Source of the DNA: Thermococcaceae archaeon
Lineage (GTDB): Archaea; Methanobacteriota_B; Thermococci; Thermococcales; Thermococcaceae
DNA length: 10,582 nucleotides
Reading direction: 5' to 3'
Assembly: GCA_026986455.1 (NCBI GenBank)
Contig: JALSON010000210.1
Location: 1 to 10,582, forward strand
Shown here: positions 1,413 through 8,452 of the stretch, in pieces
Layout: the number at the start of each line of letters is the position of its first letter
How positions within the stretch are numbered: the first letter of the stretch is position 1
The notes under the pieces: model-generated
The model's database searches: none
What the model was told of the DNA's origin: nothing
The model's input: only the letters and a program-made list of their open reading frames with translations
Translations under genes and position numbers: made by a program

Positions 1413-1910
1413 TCAAACCCTGTCAACGACACCCTTAAGTATCTCTTCAACCTTCGCCGCGACCTCAAGCAGCTCGTCGTTCCCGGTTATGCTCATGGCC
1501 TTCGTCGGGAGCAGCAGGCTCACGTAGGTCTTCCCTTCCTTCACGTACACCACGAGGTTGCACGGCAGGAATGTGCCGCTGTCCATGTCTATACCAATGA
1601 GCTCGCTTGAGAACTTCGGGTTGCAGGCGCCGAGGATGACGTAGGGCTCCATATCAAGGTCGAGCTTCTCCTTGAAGAGCTCATCCACCTTTATCTCGCT
1701 GAGAACCCCGAAGCCTTCCTTCTTGAGCTCCTCCTTGACCCGCTTAACGGTCTCGTCAAATCCGAGCTCGACCTCCCGCACGTATGCATACTCCTCATTC
1801 TCCATGGCATGGCCTCTGTGCATGCCCTTTCCGTGGCCTTTGCAGCCACCTTTCATCCCGTGGCGGCCCTTCATACCGCCTTTTCCCATTTCATTCATTT
1901 CACCTTTCAT
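1413..1910 (-). CDS. DUF302-family protein with a Met/His/Gly-rich N-terminal tail
   Basis: This 165-residue protein has a DUF302 domain at about 40-165. It shows the family's C-N-P motif (Cys96-Asn97-Pro98, after VILGA) and a second conserved Pro-Cys (LPC, Cys117). DUF302 proteins have no firmly established biochemical activity. The first 36 residues are an unusual low-complexity tail of MKG/GHG-type units with seven Met, four His (17, 26, 31, 34) and one Cys (23), resembling soft-metal-binding tails. No signal peptide is visible, so it is probably cytosolic. The ATG at 1910 is supported by GGTGAT at 5 nt. Met36 could serve as an internal start and would remove the tail, but the ribosome site favours the long form. 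It follows the HgcA-HgcB fusion gene after 132 nt and appears to have its own promoter. Metal binding is inferred from composition and neighbours only. Confidence 0.92.
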   Translation of the reverse strand: MKGEMNEMGKGGMKGRHGMKGGCKGHGKGMHRGHAMENEEYAYVREVELGFDETVKRVKEELKKEGFGVLSEIKVDELFKEKLDLDMEPYVILGACNPKFSSELIGIDMDSGTFLPCNLVVYVKEGKTYVSLLLPTKAMSITGNDELLEVAAKVEEILKGVVDRV

Positions 1911-2042: not shown

Positions 2043-3185
2043 TCACACCCTCACAAGCCTCCTTCCCATGAGGTTCAGCTTGAACTTCCTAATCGTCTCC
2101 GGAGGGATTATCCTCCCATCGGGGCTCTCAAAGAAGAGGGCATCAAAGGGACACTGGACGATGCACGCACCGCACTGAACGCATTTCCCCGCGCGGGGCA
2201 TCCGGGCGATTCCATCAATCTCATAGCAGTTTCTCGGGCACACCTGCACGCATACCCCGCAGCCCGTGCATTTTTCCTCATCCAGAACCACCCTTAAGAG
2301 GCGCTCCTCATGGAGGCCGCTCTTGTAAACAGGGGTGCTGCCCATTAAATCGATGCTCACGAGAAGGACCATGACGAAGGACACGAAACCCCAGCGGAGG
2401 AGGAAGTCAAAGCTCAAATTTCCCGTGAAGAGGCCATACATCACAAGGAGAAGGAGGAAAGAAACCTCCATTAGTAGGGGCACCCTGCTGAAGTCGAAGA
2501 TAACGGTGTATCTGCTCAATCTGGATTTTTTCTTCCCACGGGCCAGCAATCCGGAATACACGGGAAATGAGATGAAGATCAAAAAGGGTAACAGCCAGCT
2601 GAGAATGAAAAGGGGGAGCACAGCACTGCGCCAGAGGAAGAACGCAAGGAGAGCGACGATTATGGAAAAGGGAAACGCCCACATAACCGCCATCTCAACC
2701 CGCTGCACCGCCGGAAACTCAACCTCCCGCATTTTCGGGGACTTTTTATAGCCATTTTCAACGAATTTGGGAATATCTTTTGCATAAACGGGGCCCCATA
2801 TCACGCTCCACCCCGTCCTCTCCCCTATTACTTTCGCCTCGATGCCCGCCGCGGCAAGCTGGGGGAGCACCACGCGCCTGTGGTCCACGAGCCTTTCAAT
2901 TCCGCTCGTCTTTAACGCCGAAATGACGTCATGGTTTGTGAAATGCCCGCCGGCCGCGGAGCACCACACGTTTATGCCCCTGCTGTTGGCGATGAGGAGG
3001 TAGCAGTCAATACCGCTCTTTTCAAGAACCCTCTTCACGCGCTCAACCGTTACGCAGTAGTTGCCCGTGAGGAAAACGGGCGAATTCCTGCCGGGGTTGC
3101 CTATCCTGACGAGCCCCGTTTTGCAGGGGAGGGGAAAACCCCTCAAAAGCGTTCCCACAATGTTGATGAGCATATAGCGGAGCAT
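2043..3185 (-). CDS. hgcAB: HgcA-HgcB fusion: membrane corrinoid protein joined to a 2x[4Fe-4S] ferredoxin
   Basis: Numbering is from the ATG at 3185 (380 residues). Residues 20-160 match the corrinoid-binding domain of HgcA: GNPGRNSPVFLTGNY, then GINVWC with Cys75 at the position of the HgcA cap-helix cysteine that binds cobalt, then HRRVVLPQLAAAGIEA, GWSVIWGPVYAKDIPKF and a KSPKMREVEFP block. Four to five membrane segments follow (about 164-184, 189-212, 234-253, 261-280), as in HgcA. Residues 300-350 form an HgcB-like ferredoxin with Cys306/309/312/316 and Cys335/338/341/345. HgcA methylates Hg(II) from methylcobalamin, and HgcB is its reductant. Differences from canonical forms: NVWC is followed by SAAGGH instead of A-[A/G]-G-K, and the HgcB C-terminal cysteine pair is absent. 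From memory, fused forms are known from a few Thermococcales, and mercury methylation by them has not been shown. The start 4 nt after the methyltransferase stop implies coupling. An in-frame TTG at 3212 is less likely. Confidence 0.9.
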   Translation of the reverse strand: MLRYMLINIVGTLLRGFPLPCKTGLVRIGNPGRNSPVFLTGNYCVTVERVKRVLEKSGIDCYLLIANSRGINVWCSAAGGHFTNHDVISALKTSGIERLVDHRRVVLPQLAAAGIEAKVIGERTGWSVIWGPVYAKDIPKFVENGYKKSPKMREVEFPAVQRVEMAVMWAFPFSIIVALLAFFLWRSAVLPLFILSWLLPFLIFISFPVYSGLLARGKKKSRLSRYTVIFDFSRVPLLMEVSFLLLLVMYGLFTGNLSFDFLLRWGFVSFVMVLLVSIDLMGSTPVYKSGLHEERLLRVVLDEEKCTGCGVCVQVCPRNCYEIDGIARMPRAGKCVQCGACIVQCPFDALFFESPDGRIIPPETIRKFKLNLMGRRLVRV

Positions 3186-3189
3186 ATCC

Positions 3190-3849
3190 TCATCCCCCGG
3201 GCTTCCTCGCAACTATCTCCACAAAGTCCTCCATCCGGCTCAGCCTCATGGACTCCATGATAAAGCCTGCCCCCTCCACCTTCTCGGGAAGATTCTTTAT
3301 CGCCCTCGTCGTGGTCTGAGTGAGGAGGTAGGCGATTAAAAGGAGCGGAAGCCTGATTAGGAGTGTTATAACCCTCTTCAACGGATTGCGGGGCACGACC
3401 TCATCCGCAATCAACAGGAGGCCTCCGGGTTTCAGTATTCTCATTATCTCCCTCAGGGCATAGCATAATTCGTCCTCGCTCAGCTCGGAGAAGCAGAGAC
3501 CCGCCATCACGGCATCATAGCTCTCCGCGGCCTCGGTGTCAAGCTCCGCAACACCCATCTCACAGAGCTCAACCCTATGCGTGAGTGCCACCTCCTCTAT
3601 CTTTTTCCCCGCAATTTCAAGCATCCGCGGGTTGATGTCGATGGCCTTGACCCGTGCGCCCCGCATAGCGGCACGTATCGTTAGCGCTCCCGTCCCGCAA
3701 CCTATGTCAAGAACCCTCTGCCCCGGCTTTATGCGGGATGCAAGTCTCTCATAGACCCCCTCGAGCCTTCCCAGAGTGAGTATTCTAACCCCCCTGTCGT
3801 ATCTGTCGGGGGAGGACTCAAGTATCCTCATGAGGACATACGATGGCAT
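3190..3849 (-). CDS. Class I SAM-dependent methyltransferase coupled to the HgcA-HgcB fusion gene
   Basis: This 219-residue Rossmann-fold methyltransferase transfers a methyl group from S-adenosylmethionine to an unknown acceptor. Motif I is VLDIGCGTG (46-54), the acidic end of strand 2 is in AIDINP (Asp71), and a LKPGG post-motif lies at 139-143. A hydrophobic stretch at about 160-176 (ITLLIRLPLLLIAYLL) is not usual in soluble UbiE-type enzymes and suggests membrane contact or a lipid-like substrate. The frame is open further upstream to 3975, but that part overlaps the end of another coding frame. The ATG at 3849 has GGGAG at 5 nt and starts at the natural N-terminus of the domain, so I chose it. 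The stop precedes the fusion gene's ATG by 4 nt, so the two are surely cotranscribed. A role in supplying or using a methyl group with the corrinoid protein is inferred from position. The cysteine arrangement does not look like arsenite methyltransferase. Confidence 0.88.
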   Translation of the reverse strand: MPSYVLMRILESSPDRYDRGVRILTLGRLEGVYERLASRIKPGQRVLDIGCGTGALTIRAAMRGARVKAIDINPRMLEIAGKKIEEVALTHRVELCEMGVAELDTEAAESYDAVMAGLCFSELSEDELCYALREIMRILKPGGLLLIADEVVPRNPLKRVITLLIRLPLLLIAYLLTQTTTRAIKNLPEKVEGAGFIMESMRLSRMEDFVEIVARKPGG

Positions 3850-3886
3850 CCGAACTCCCTGTATGAAAATCCGCTCATCCTGTATT

Positions 3887-4045
3887 TTAAACTTCCTCCG
3901 GCTTTTTTGGAAGCCCAAGATACCTCGGGGTTCTCTCCTTATACCTCCTGTACTCCTCCCCAAACACGCGCTCAAGGATGCAAATTCTTGCGATGGACAC
4001 CATGGCAGAAGCGTGAGAGATGGATGTCCGGTATAATTCTAGGAG
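3887..4045 (-). pseudogene. 3' remnant of an isoprenylcysteine carboxyl methyltransferase (ICMT/PEMT)-like gene
   Basis: The minus-strand frame ends in about 40 residues with the C-terminal signature of ICMT/PEMT-like membrane methyltransferases: a short hydrophobic helix, then ILERVFGEEYRRYKERTPRYLG. In that family the helix carries E-E/E-R, followed by FGeeYxxYxxRtPRfiP. Complete members have four to five membrane helices and about 150-200 residues. Here everything upstream is gone, and by about 4063 the frame becomes a shadow of the next gene. The longest ATG with in-family sequence (4003) gives only 38 residues. The simplest reading is truncation of an intact gene by the AT-rich block to its right. 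Survival as a small peptide gene cannot be excluded. The remnant ends 37 nt before the methyltransferase ATG. Confidence 0.6.
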
Positions 4046-4062
4046 CATTAAAAACCAAAAGC

Positions 4063-4875
4063 TCACTTCATCCTCGCCTTCCGGTACACTATCACGAATA
4101 TTAAAATAATTCCAATGAGAAGAATCCCACCGGGATATGAATTTAAAAACTCTCCCTGACACGTCGGCAGTTTGCTCCCGAGTGCCCTCGTGAAGTTCAG
4201 CATATGAAGAGAGTTTCCATCGTAGTAGAGCACCGTAACATTTTCCCAGCCAAAGGGAACAAAGGAATTCTCTGGACGAAGAAAAAGCAGAACACCACCG
4301 TGCAGAAATACGGAACGGAGGGTTACGTTATCAGGAATGTTTATGCTCAGGTTGCTTGGAATTTTAATGACATAGGAAACACTTCCGTTCGATGTGTAGA
4401 TTTTGGAGTCATTAATTCGGGCAGGATAATCCTCACTGGATATCAAATATTTCCTAGAACGCATCGAACGTGTTACCCCGAGGGGAAGCATCAACACTCT
4501 CCTTATGCACAGCTTTTTAGGATTGATAGCCCTTCCATCGCTGATGTACCATAAATTGTCATGGAGGACATAACGAAGCTCTTCTAATCCGGTGGTACTT
4601 CCGAGGTAGTAGAGCATTCCGTCCTTGAAGTAGAAGTAGTACTCCCCGACCATGCTTGGAGTGGGTATCCCCTGCATCCCTGGCCCGAGGGCATCCCATG
4701 AGAGCATTATTATCGCGTCATCCTCCCCGGCTTTGATAAAGGGGTAAAATGTGCAGTATTCTGTGGGGGCAAGAACTGGATTGGGGCCGCAGAGGGCTTC
4801 GGTGGCGTATGTAGGTGTAACAGAGAGGAATAATAAAAAAAGAAGTACAAACCCTAAAGCTGCTTTTTTATACAT
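4063..4875 (-). CDS. Cell-surface protein: signal peptide, glycosylation-rich ectodomain, C-terminal membrane anchor
   Basis: I do not recognise a family. From the ATG at 4875 the protein has 270 residues. It begins MYKK followed by a hydrophobic core (about 5-20) and a likely cleavage site after TYA (24), and ends in a single membrane helix (about 249-264) with a positive tail RKARMK. This is a type I topology with the bulk outside the cell. The ectodomain has six N-x-S/T sequons (NDS, NGS, NLS, NVT twice, NFT) and four cysteines that could form two disulfides. The start overlaps the upstream gene's stop by 8 nt (ATGTATAA), with GGGGG just upstream, so the two genes are translationally coupled and probably act together at the surface. 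A longer in-frame start at 4929 would bury the signal peptide and is rejected. AT content is higher than in the flanking metal genes. Confidence 0.82.
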   Translation of the reverse strand: MYKKAALGFVLLFLLFLSVTPTYATEALCGPNPVLAPTEYCTFYPFIKAGEDDAIIMLSWDALGPGMQGIPTPSMVGEYYFYFKDGMLYYLGSTTGLEELRYVLHDNLWYISDGRAINPKKLCIRRVLMLPLGVTRSMRSRKYLISSEDYPARINDSKIYTSNGSVSYVIKIPSNLSINIPDNVTLRSVFLHGGVLLFLRPENSFVPFGWENVTVLYYDGNSLHMLNFTRALGSKLPTCQGEFLNSYPGGILLIGIILIFVIVYRKARMK

Positions 4876-5767
4876 ACGGAACCCCCAAATTGCCTCTACA
4901 ATATGAATCAACATGTCTAACAACATCAAAGGTTACCCCAAAGTAATAAGCCCTTTGGAAATACCTCCTGCCGATAGTGTTGATCTGGGCCTGTATATAG
5001 TTACCCGCCAATCTCATACAATTTTCCGAGTCGTTACATGTTTTGCAGTTTCCTCCGCCCCCAATGATACATTCGTCAGCTTCCATCTCCATGAACACAT
5101 TCCAGCAATTGTACTTAAGTTTTAATCCCTCAAGATTGAGCGTCCATCCATCTATATCATTTATTCGTCCCATGTAATAATTTGGCTGGGCAAAAACATA
5201 ATCAAAATATTCACATGCCCCCGGGTAGTTGGGAGACTTATACCACCATGGAAATATATTTGTCCCCTCGATGTTCATCGTAGGTGTACTGGGCATCCAG
5301 ATGAATTCAAATCCCGCTTGATGTATTTTTTGAGACATTGCCTCGATTAGTTCGTGAGATATCCCTTTCTCTATGTTTAATTGATCCTGTTTGAACATCC
5401 AAGCATTTTCAAGGCTCCAATAGAATCCTCGTAAATTGGGATCCGAGGAATGTGTAAATATAAACGTGTCAATCCATTTCTCCCAGTAGGATCTTTCAAA
5501 GTTTCCGGTTATATTACCGCGCGGAGTTTTTGACGGTGTAAAAAAAGGTACCGTAACATAGTATGGCATATCCATATGGACACTTAAGTACTCGGAGAGA
5601 TTGTATGCATCAGTTTCGGCATCTCCAGTATACTGGATGTGAGCTGGCTGTCCAAGCACCACGGCATAATCAAAACCAAGCTCCCTAAACTGTTCCAGAC
5701 TCCCACTCATCCTCGATTCATAACCCGAGCCGTTCCATCTAACCCACCATAGTCCAAAGTTTGCCAT
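4868..5767 (-). CDS. DUF4855-like TIM-barrel (glycosidase-like) protein
   Basis: From the ATG at 5767 the protein has 299 residues. It resembles DUF4855, a glycoside-hydrolase-like barrel family of unknown activity. Visible family-like blocks are LRGFYWSLEN (112-121), FEFIWMPS at the end of a strand (153-160), FDYVFAQPNYYMGR (188-201) and WNVFMEMEADE (222-232). The acidic residues at strand ends, Glu120, Glu227 and Glu229, are candidate catalytic residues by analogy with retaining glycosidases. This is inference. Five Cys lie between 221 and 290, including a CxxC pair (241/244). No signal peptide is seen, although the partner gene encodes a secreted anchored protein. The start is uncertain: GGTGAT lies only 4 nt from this ATG, and GTG codons at 5779 and 5776 sit about where transcription should begin, which would allow a leaderless start. 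Confidence 0.78.
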   Translation of the reverse strand: MANFGLWWVRWNGSGYESRMSGSLEQFRELGFDYAVVLGQPAHIQYTGDAETDAYNLSEYLSVHMDMPYYVTVPFFTPSKTPRGNITGNFERSYWEKWIDTFIFTHSSDPNLRGFYWSLENAWMFKQDQLNIEKGISHELIEAMSQKIHQAGFEFIWMPSTPTMNIEGTNIFPWWYKSPNYPGACEYFDYVFAQPNYYMGRINDIDGWTLNLEGLKLKYNCWNVFMEMEADECIIGGGGNCKTCNDSENCMRLAGNYIQAQINTIGRRYFQRAYYFGVTFDVVRHVDSYCRGNLGVPYV

Positions 5768-5798
5768 TGGAATCACCACTATTTAATACTTTTAACAG

Positions 5799-6023: not shown

Positions 6024-8099
6024 TCACCTCAGAATCCTCATCGCGTTGAAGACCGCTATGAGGGCGACGCCGACGTCCGCAAAGACAGCCTCCCACATCG
6101 TAGCCTCTCCGAGGACTCCGAGGCTTATGAAGGCAAACTTAACGCCGAGGGCGAAGATTATGTTCTGCCACACTATACGCTGGGTCTTTCTCGCTATCCT
6201 GATGCCTCTTGGCAGTTTGGAGGGTTTGTCATCCATTATGACAACGTCTGCCGTCTCTATCGCCGCATCACTGCCCAATGCCCCCATCGCAACGCCCACA
6301 TCTGCCCTGGCCAAGACAGGCGCATCGTTTATGCCGTCGCCGACGAAGACGACCTTTCCATCGCCTTTCTCCGCCTCAAGCTCCTCAATGACCCTGACCT
6401 TGTCCTCAGGTAAAAGCTCCGCGTAGAACCCGTCCAGTCCAATCTGCCTCGCTATCTCAGCAGCGACGTCCTTGTTGTCACCGGTAACCATCACGACCTT
6501 CTTAACGCCGAGGCGCTTGAGCTCTTTTACTGCCAGGGGAGCGTCTTCCTTTATTTCGTCCGAGATTATTATGTAGCCGGCGTACTTTCCGTTGATGACA
6601 ACGTGAGCCACCGTCCCCTTGACGCGGCATGTGTCGTGTTCGATGTTGAACCTGTGGAGGAGCCTGTCGTTGCCAACCATGACCTCGACGCCGTCTATCT
6701 CTGCCCTGACGCCGTGTCCCGCTATCTCCTCGTACTCCATGAGGTTTTCTTTGATATCCCCTCCATAAGCATCTTTTATCGCCCTCGCTATCGGATGGCT
6801 TGAATTGGCCTCCGCTAAAGCCGCGAACCTTATTATCTCCTCCTCGCTGAAGCCGTTCCTCGTCTCTATTTTCGTGACCTTGAAGACTCCCTTTGTCAGC
6901 GTTCCGGTCTTGTCAAAGGCGACAACGGTAGCCCCGTGAAGGGCATCGAGGTAGTTGGAGCCCTTGACGAGTATTCCATCCCTTGCGGCCCTTCCGATGC
7001 CGCCGAAGTAGCCGAGGGGTATTGAGAGGACGAGGGCACAGGGGCACGATATGACGAGGAGCACCAGAGCCCTGTACAGCCAGATTGAGAACGGGTCGCC
7101 ATAGACGAGCGGGGGAATGATGGCAACGAGCGCTGCAAGTCCGACGACTGCGGGGGTGTAGTAGTGAGCAAATCGCGTGATGAACTTCTCGGTCTTGGCC
7201 TTCCTCGCGCTCGCGTTCTCGACGAGCTCAAGGATGCGCGAGATGGTTGATTCCCTCAGCTCCTTGGTGACCTTCACTTTGAGGACGCCGCTGAGGTTGA
7301 GCATGCCGGATAGGATTTCCTCCCCCTCCTTCACCGTCCTCGGGACGCTTTCACCGGTTAGGGCGGAGGTATCAACTGTCGAGGTTCCCTCTATGACCAC
7401 TCCATCAACGGGAACCTTTTCACCGGGCTTTATCAGAATTATATCGCCCACCTTCAGCTCTTCCGGCTTCACCTGGACTACCCCATCTCCCTGCAGGAGG
7501 TTCGCATACTCAGCCTTGAGCGCGAGCAGGGCCTTTATCGAGCGCCTCGACCTGTCAACGGCCATGTCCTGGAAGAACTCGCCTACGACGTAGAACAGCA
7601 TGACGGCAACTCCTTCCGGGTACTCCCTGATGAGGAACGCACCCACTGTGGCCACCGCGATGAGAAAGTTCTCATCGAAGAGGTTGCCGTGTATGGAATT
7701 AACAACGGCGCTCCTTAGAACCTTCCACCCAACGAGAAGGTAGCTGGCGGTGAAGATTCCGAACACAAAGGCGTTGTCCATGTTATAGTAGTAGCGGAGC
7801 ACCACCCCGATGCCAAAGAGCATGAGCGACGGGATTATGAAGTAGAGCGCCCTTCTGGGGCCCCCTTCACCGTGCTCGTGTCCGTGATCGTGGTCATGCT
7901 CCCCCTTCTCAATGACCTTAACTCCGGGCTCGACCCTTTCTATTATCTCTTTAGCCTTCTCAACGTCGCCTTCTATCACGGCCTCCTTGGTGGCAAAGTT
8001 CACCAGCGCGAACTCAAAGCCCTCTTTTTTTAGGGCTTCCTCTATCTCGTAGGCGCAGCTCGCACAGTCGAGTCCCTCAAGCTTGAGCTTCTTCGGCAT
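6024..8099 (-). CDS. P1B-type heavy-metal ATPase, Zn/Cd/Pb (ZntA/CadA) class
   Basis: This 691-residue inner-membrane pump uses ATP to export soft divalent cations. An N-terminal HMA domain carries the metal-binding CASC (Cys12, Cys15). A His-rich linker with HDHDHGHEH (68-76) follows. Then come membrane helices, the actuator TGES (248-251), the CPC metal site in the membrane (352-354), the phosphorylated Asp396 in DKTGT, the HP motif (435-436), TGDN (539-542) and the hinge GDGINDAP (587-594). Lys654 (FALGVK) and Asp675 (FADVG) in the last two helices are the hallmark of the Zn/Cd/Pb subgroup. Copper pumps have YN and MSSS motifs there. Hg(II) is also carried by some members. The ATG at 8099 has GGAGG at an ideal distance inside the end of the ArsR gene; the GTG at 8105 lies too close to that site. 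Expression is presumably controlled by the upstream ArsR. Confidence 0.95.
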   Translation of the reverse strand: MPKKLKLEGLDCASCAYEIEEALKKEGFEFALVNFATKEAVIEGDVEKAKEIIERVEPGVKVIEKGEHDHDHGHEHGEGGPRRALYFIIPSLMLFGIGVVLRYYYNMDNAFVFGIFTASYLLVGWKVLRSAVVNSIHGNLFDENFLIAVATVGAFLIREYPEGVAVMLFYVVGEFFQDMAVDRSRRSIKALLALKAEYANLLQGDGVVQVKPEELKVGDIILIKPGEKVPVDGVVIEGTSTVDTSALTGESVPRTVKEGEEILSGMLNLSGVLKVKVTKELRESTISRILELVENASARKAKTEKFITRFAHYYTPAVVGLAALVAIIPPLVYGDPFSIWLYRALVLLVISCPCALVLSIPLGYFGGIGRAARDGILVKGSNYLDALHGATVVAFDKTGTLTKGVFKVTKIETRNGFSEEEIIRFAALAEANSSHPIARAIKDAYGGDIKENLMEYEEIAGHGVRAEIDGVEVMVGNDRLLHRFNIEHDTCRVKGTVAHVVINGKYAGYIIISDEIKEDAPLAVKELKRLGVKKVVMVTGDNKDVAAEIARQIGLDGFYAELLPEDKVRVIEELEAEKGDGKVVFVGDGINDAPVLARADVGVAMGALGSDAAIETADVVIMDDKPSKLPRGIRIARKTQRIVWQNIIFALGVKFAFISLGVLGEATMWEAVFADVGVALIAVFNAMRILR

Positions 8100-8101
8100 C
8101 T

Positions 8102-8452
8102 TCACTCCTCCATGTGCTTTAACGCAACCTTCAGGATTTCGGTTATATGCTCGTCATCGAGACGGTAGAAGACGTTCTTCCCGTCCTTGCGGTAGGTGAC
8201 GATTTTTCTGTCCTTGAGGATGCGGAGCTGGTGGGATATTGCCGAAACTGAAAGCTTGGTTATCGCCGAGAGGTCGCAGGTGCAGAGCTCTCCCGCCTCC
8301 ATGAGTGCGAGCAGGATTTTAAGCCTCGTCGGGTTGCCGAGGGCGTTGAAAAAGTCCGCCACTTCCAATACGGTCTCCTCCTCCGGAATTTTTGCCTGTG
8401 CCTCTAGTATTTTATCCAGATGTTCCTCATACACTTTACACACTTCCGTCAT
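8102..8452 (-). CDS. ArsR/SmtB-family metal-sensing repressor
   Basis: This 116-residue winged-helix repressor of the ArsR/SmtB/CadC family releases DNA when it binds metal. The helix-turn-helix is around 58-80 (LSVSAISHQLRILKD) and the wing is VTYRKDGKNVFYRL. Two metal-site signatures are visible. In helix 3, ELCTCD (Cys57, Cys59, Asp60) matches the CadC ELCVCD soft-metal site, with Cys5 as a possible N-terminal ligand. In the last helix, Asp100, His102, His113 and Glu116 have exactly the spacing of the SmtB/CzrA zinc site. The stop lies 3 nt below the pump's ATG, so the two are coupled. The ATG at 8452 has a strong GAGGTGAT ribosome site. Autoregulation and control of the pump are inferred from the inverted repeat at its own promoter. 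Cd, Pb, Zn or Hg are plausible inducers. Confidence 0.93.
   Translation of the reverse strand: MTEVCKVYEEHLDKILEAQAKIPEEETVLEVADFFNALGNPTRLKILLALMEAGELCTCDLSAITKLSVSAISHQLRILKDRKIVTYRKDGKNVFYRLDDEHITEILKVALKHMEE

Follow-up and report, generated by a model that had tools for sequence, protein, structure and literature searches.

Does a protein that joins an HgcA-like front to an HgcB-like tail methylate mercury, and if its chemistry lies elsewhere, where does its methyl group come from and where does it go? The question is raised by a gene in a 10,582-nucleotide stretch of archaeal DNA (hereafter the window), which is contig C210 of a 1.68 Mb draft genome in 376 contigs, 74% complete. The first-pass annotation of the window had read this gene as HgcA and HgcB, the mercury-methylation proteins, joined in one gene of a hyperthermophilic archaeon, and had left both the substrate and the methyl source open.

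Architecture and family of the fusion protein

The gene is real, with its strand corrected to minus: it runs from an ATG at 3185 to a stop at 2043 and encodes 380 residues (Table 1). The closest named relative of its product is a Thermococcus atlanticus protein (97% identity), in agreement with a Thermococcus-like, hyperthermophilic host. The layout, with an N-terminal corrinoid domain, four predicted membrane helices and a C-terminal two-cluster ferredoxin, agrees with the HgcA-type half and ferredoxin tail first proposed, and is supported by profile matches (PF03599 at 5.6e-19, and Fer4), by the sequence motifs and by a structure model built from 94 rows (pLDDT 88.3), which replaced a 25-row model with a pLDDT of 61.9. 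The corrinoid fold, the cap-helix cysteine, the membrane helices and the ferredoxin are all present by sequence or structure prediction. Cys75 of the cap helix is conserved throughout the 80 fusion loci compared, the best 80 out of 140 related ones, and the ferredoxin has both CxxCxxCxxxCP cluster motifs (Cys306/309/312/316 and Cys335/338/341/345, plus Cys320), with no cysteine past C345. A promoter scan with the bacterial consensus and an Rfam search of the window returned nothing usable.

Table 1 Features of the window, and the CpaM-HgcA chain of a second genome, with the basis of each call
Feature	Position	Strand	Basis
DUF302 protein, Met/His/Gly-rich N-terminus	1413..1910	-	context; near the pair in 4/4 phylum carriers
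HgcAB-like fusion protein, 380 aa	2043..3185	-	NF043039, PF03599, Fer4; model pLDDT 88.3
Ferredoxin domain, residues 298-353	2127..2294	-	
Membrane region, four predicted helices, residues 159-283	2337..2711	-	hydropathy and model
Segment within N-terminal half of fusion gene	2751..3116	-	
Cap-helix motif NVWCSAAG, residues 72-79, with Cys75	2949..2972	-	
CpaM, corrinoid protein-associated SAM methyltransferase, class I, 219 aa	3190..3849	-	NF043040
ZntA-like heavy-metal P1B-ATPase	6024..8105	-	context; 4/4 carriers
ArsR/SmtB metalloregulator with CxC stretch (ELCTCDLS)	8102..8452	-	NF033788, 96.5 bits, cut-off 55; 4/4 carriers
CpaM-HgcA chain L184 (G137:C19)	3638-5221	+	curated profiles

The window protein matches NF043039, the 'HgcAB-like fusion protein' model, with 456.8 bits (cut-off 285) over model positions 2-349 of 350, and the gene upstream of it matches the CpaM model NF043040 with 295.4 bits (cut-off 180). 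Since both are over their curated cut-offs, both belong to curated families, and the fusion protein is a further member of one already known, that of the fused HgcAB of Pyrococcus furiosus, Methanococcoides methylutens and Kosmotoga pacifica. Fused HgcAB proteins have already been described, as the accessible parts of two papers indicate (PMC5038027, PMC5893877). The window protein falls under the cut-offs of the HgcA model NF040863 (159 bits, cut-off 275) and of the HgcB model NF040864 (46.8 bits, cut-off 99), and the HgcA cut-off is missed by all 50 fusions scored (of 80 fetched). Such fusions had been thought rare and known from some Thermococcales, which is correct for the window's phylum, where 4 of 115 genomes carry one, but not overall, as the best 80 of 140 related loci retained by our genome scan come from many bacterial and archaeal phyla.

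The N-terminal half falls in the CdhD/HgcA superfamily and not in an unrelated family. Its corrinoid domain superposes on that of the CFeSP large subunit (CdhE/AcsC, PF03599) at 1.5 Å over 131 residues. Against the PF03599 profile, the match of the window protein is confined to the C-terminal third (positions 265-386 of 387). Unlike CFeSP, the window protein is membrane-bound. Cys75 lies in the cap helix, so that the buried position which would have spoken against a corrinoid role is not seen, and it aligns without gaps to Thr374 of CFeSP, which we take to sit at the cobalt.

The HgcA and HgcB pair likewise has a corrinoid domain with an NVWC cap helix, a membrane domain and a two-cluster ferredoxin. 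It consists of two proteins, whereas the window protein is one chain, paired with CpaM. Five membrane helices are expected of an HgcA, and the window protein has four predicted ones, found by hydropathy at both thresholds and likewise in the model; the helix count of other fusions and of HgcA varies with the hydropathy threshold. The window protein also has GG where the majority of examined HgcAs show GK.

Within its own family, the window protein differs from most members in retaining the second cysteine of ferredoxin motif I (residue 309), as do 8 of the 79 alignable fusions; this residue is substituted in the other 71, by Ala in 46. One cluster may thereby have an iron site left open, and Cys320, present in 67 of the 79, might stand in for the missing cysteine. 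In another locus, L022, a TGA at position 7195 falls exactly at the expected first cluster cysteine and the frame continues beyond it; this codon could encode selenocysteine, a hairpin being possible immediately after it, or it could be an error in the sequence.

Mercury and the metal context

That the fusion is itself a mercury methylase, with its front working as HgcA and its tail as HgcB on Hg(II), would fit the NVWC cap helix, corrinoid domain, membrane helices and ferredoxin that it has in common with that pair, and also the metalloregulator and Zn/Cd/Hg/Pb-type ATPase that it adjoins in its phylum. The details of the tail speak against it. HgcB has an extra cysteine (Cys73, in GVGC) 13 residues past the last cluster cysteine, and the accessible parts of PMC7305189 and PMC11588087 indicate that this residue and the tail cysteines matter for Hg methylation. 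We recognised an HgcB next to 21 of 32 HgcA genes, and all 21 have both the GVGC cysteine and a tail Cys. Both features are absent from the window protein, and a cysteine at +12 to +14 after the last cluster cysteine is found in 0 of the 79 alignable fusions; 63 of the 79 have no later cysteine whatever, a count from which L022 was omitted, its frame stopping early. The window protein also misses the cut-offs of both HgcA and HgcB, and the reading of this gene as HgcA and HgcB proper, joined in one chain, is not upheld.

The remark that mercury methylation had not been demonstrated for such fusions has stood up: P. furiosus and M. methylutens, both carriers of fused hgcAB, gave no methylmercury above controls, according to the sections of PMC5038027 and PMC5893877 that we could consult. 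Taken with the sequence features, this makes a fused mercury methylase highly improbable in our view, and the pairing with CpaM further argues against mercury as the main target of the fusion. A separate HgcA over the cut-off is found in 4 of the 50 fusion genomes searched (of 80 fetched), namely G123, G130, G132 and G157, and a fifth, G137, has a CpaM-HgcA chain that is under the HgcA cut-off. In PMC7438021, as far as its accessible text goes, four fused proteins served as paralogs for rooting the tree. Because the window protein and all 50 scored fusions fail the HgcA cut-off, and 79 of 79 are without the GVGC cysteine, fused hgcAB genes in surveys should not be counted as evidence of mercury methylation.

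Four Heimdallarchaeota fusions (L076, L077, L079 and L084) have, unlike most other fusions, a CC-containing, cysteine-rich tail (e.g. DCCLAC), and these proteins might handle thiophilic metals.

The gene order arsR, ZntA-like ATPase, CpaM, fusion and DUF302 is common to the window and to G042, G096 and G100, with intervening genes that differ among the four loci, and from this shared order the pair can be said to sit in a metal-handling island in the window's phylum. The adjacency of the ATPase is weak evidence, because this gene is common in the phylum without the pair: 55 genomes out of 115 have homologues at E ≤ 1e-100, and 4 have the fusion. A family-wide linkage to metal resistance was rejected, since ArsR, ATPase and DUF302 were seen around the pair only in the four phylum carriers. 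Besides the pair, no neighbour family occurs in more than 9 of 81 loci (window included), those 9 all being from Heimdallarchaeota, in a BLAST grouping with half-length coverage that could miss looser relatives. In a Pfam tally of 121 near neighbours, no metal-resistance family ranks among the 25 most frequent. There are 272 near neighbours in total, 239 of them no longer than 650 aa, and the 121 tallied were drawn from these 239, mostly the longer ones, with some Heimdallarchaeota repeats omitted by hand.

Two overlapping ORFs of 288 and 303 aa lie between the ATPase and CpaM in the window (4063-5779, minus strand), the 303-aa one weakly DUF4855-like, and neither has a counterpart in the other three carrier loci. 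In the nearest relative of the locus, L185 (G042), an ORF between fusion and DUF302 (6156-7400, minus strand) is NRAMP-like by eye.

CpaM as partner and candidate methyl source

The gap between the stop codon of CpaM and the ATG of the fusion is four bases. Of the 80 fusion loci, 75 have a CpaM gene upstream in the same orientation, with gaps of -7 to 49 nt in 72 of these 75, and in four of the five loci without it (L016, L052, L055 and L056) the match starts within 184 nt of a contig end. The fifth, L087 from a Chromatiales MAG, is the sole locus of the 80 that has 8 kb of upstream sequence yet no CpaM.

Locus L034 comes from G130, a genome titled Desulfobacterales MAG. Of 247 genomes sampled from the bacterial phylum to which G130 belongs, eight have a fusion that passes its cut-off, and CpaM is found at E ≤ 1e-35 in the identical eight, passing its own cut-off in seven when the best 11 candidates per genome were scored. 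The two are adjacent or in one frame in seven of the eight genomes and on separate contigs in G165. HgcA is over its cut-off in 67 of the 247, and only two of these, the fusion carriers G130 and G157, have CpaM; the 65 with a true HgcA and without the fusion have none. In one more fusion carrier, G240, there are pieces of HgcA that score under the cut-off. In the window's genus, 2 of 61 genomes have a fusion that passes its cut-off, and the same two have a CpaM that does. The distances of CpaM and fusion correlate with r 0.80 (n 72; maximum 0.30 in 2000 permutations), which partly reflects shared inheritance.

The upstream gene shows no difference from the NF043040 CpaM family, whose entry states no reaction. 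Its SAM motif (D48, G50, G52, T53, G54) is conserved in at least 95% of 74 rows. An ArsM-like arsenic site was considered and rejected, as the only common cysteines of CpaM are Cys51, which belongs to the SAM motif (70 of 74), and Cys119 (61 of 74). In the literature searched, outside which most subscription papers lie, we found neither a description of a CpaM and corrinoid protein pairing nor a CpaM assay.

Natural fusions of the two partners also occur. A 527-aa frame of G137 (L184, Table 1) holds CpaM (216.9 bits, over cut-off) and an HgcA-like protein (213.3 bits, under cut-off), and with this protein as query, 62 of the 120 relatives listed (of 130) combine on a single chain an NVWC corrinoid domain and a CpaM-type domain, the latter called at > 40 bits on a profile that we built ourselves. 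These 62 form six multi-member clusters at 50% identity and three singletons (P0143 is incomplete), and four of them also have ferredoxin motifs. Seven of the nine single chains scored pass the curated CpaM cut-off, the exceptions being P0185 and the truncated L183; none is over the HgcA cut-off, and P0174, P0176 and L183 pass that of the HgcAB-like family. By sequence or structure prediction, the pairing of CpaM and fusion is near-obligate and sometimes covalent.

Some of these chains deserve separate mention. P0174, P0176, P0177 and P0179 have CpaM, corrinoid, membrane and ferredoxin parts on a single chain of ~590 aa. L183 (G221) has CpaM and fusion in one frame with the first 57 CpaM positions missing, and was rejected as an intact triple chain, given an in-frame stop upstream and a contig end 50 nt away. 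L063 and L083 were rejected as single-ORF CpaM fusions, as their CpaM terminates in its own ORF.

We propose that CpaM and the fusion form a two-gene enzyme, a SAM-fed membrane corrinoid methyltransferase, an explanation that we regard, taken whole, as probable by a modest measure. CpaM would transfer the methyl group of SAM to the Co(I) corrinoid in the N-terminal domain of the fusion, and the covalently attached ferredoxin, on the same membrane side, would give the low-potential electrons that make or restore Co(I). Cys75 would act as the lower cobalt ligand and weaken the Co-C bond, from which an electrophilic acceptor at the membrane could then take the methyl group. We infer the direction of transfer, from CpaM to the corrinoid, and, by analogy with HgcA, the ligand role of Cys75. 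The methyl partner of CFeSP is MeTr/AcsE, whereas that of the fusion would be CpaM. The fusion gene is the only PF03599 match in its own genome (74% complete), so no CFeSP was found there to feed it; CobS, for corrinoid assembly, is present. Our analysis suggests CpaM as a strong candidate for the methyl source, which the first-pass annotation had left open. The accessible part of PMC11588087 shows SAM to be the methyl donor of true HgcAB, with the cobalt ligated by Cys, and this use of SAM makes a charging step by CpaM chemically credible.

CpaM could instead work downstream or in parallel, methylating an organic acceptor with SAM while the fusion carries out a separate redox or methyl step towards the same product. 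The UbiE/MenG-like similarity of CpaM is in line with such a role, as the usual acceptors of these class I methyltransferases are small organic molecules. Purified true HgcAB, moreover, takes SAM without a separate methyltransferase (PMC11588087, accessible part), and CpaM might therefore do another step. We nevertheless consider this division of labour unlikely, as several sequence groups have CpaM and the corrinoid domain directly fused, and as CpaM occurs where the corrinoid protein does and has no second recurrent partner.

The system might also run in reverse or serve repair, the corrinoid demethylating organometals or CpaM helping to reactivate Co(II) with SAM in the manner of methionine synthase. 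SAM-driven reactivation is known from MetH and provides a precedent, and the fused ferredoxin would deliver the electron. Reactivation alone, however, would leave the main cycle without a methyl donor, no CFeSP having been found in the own, incomplete genome, and SAM-dependent methylation of HgcA is termed irreversible in the portion of PMC11588087 at hand; we give this reading very little credence.

For the SAM-fed methyltransferase charged by CpaM, we think that the acceptor is not Hg(II) handled in the fashion of HgcB. Our favoured guess, possible rather than likely, is another soft metal or metalloid, a guess drawn from the context in one phylum, as no metal-resistance family ranks among the 25 most frequent Pfam families of the wider neighbourhoods.

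Relationship to HgcA

A tree of 105 chosen rows (49 of 84 fusions, 19 HgcA, 26 CpaM-fused and 11 CFeSP, with CFeSP as root) places HgcA in a single clade (100/99) with the window protein outside it, and the fusions in a single clade of their own (97/66). The nearest neighbours of the fusions are the CpaM-corrinoid-ferredoxin chains, followed by a single CpaM-corrinoid group (98/87 and 99/97), and other groups with a fused CpaM are placed next to HgcA or fall outside every one of these clades; the basal order is unresolved in this tree, which is built on a short domain of 155 columns and drew a tool warning of long branches meeting at the root. The separation of fusions and HgcA belongs to this better-sampled tree. 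In the first tree (131 rows), which included three misplaced CFeSP fragments (L155, L158 and L165) dropped before the second, HgcA was also one clade without the window protein, but nested among the fusions, and the same nesting is found in a published survey, in the part accessible to us (PMC7573106). Because the two trees differ and the base is unresolved, a CpaM-linked ancestor is only plausible.

The ORF that follows L184, ending at 5478, encodes a ferredoxin of HgcB type that has both the GVGC cysteine and a cysteine tail; at 72.8 bits it is under the HgcB cut-off of 99. Judged from sequence, L184 and this ORF may together methylate mercury, the SAM methyltransferase domain being part of the L184 chain.

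HgcA may be a branch of an older membrane corrinoid family that is charged from SAM by CpaM, as operon partner or fused domain, with mercury methylation as a CpaM-less offshoot, a reading to which we give somewhat less than an even chance. Included in that same estimate is that the offshoot would have retained SAM as its methyl donor, with its ferredoxin acquiring cysteines that bind Hg. If this is true, the CpaM-HgcA chain of G137, with its GVGC- and Cys-tailed ferredoxin, would be a living intermediate. A sister family that is almost always tied, and in some cases fused, to a SAM methyltransferase offers a concrete, testable methyl donor, and the CpaM-linked family would provide a route to the ancestral reaction, with a bearing on the native function and the origin of the mercury-methylating proteins.
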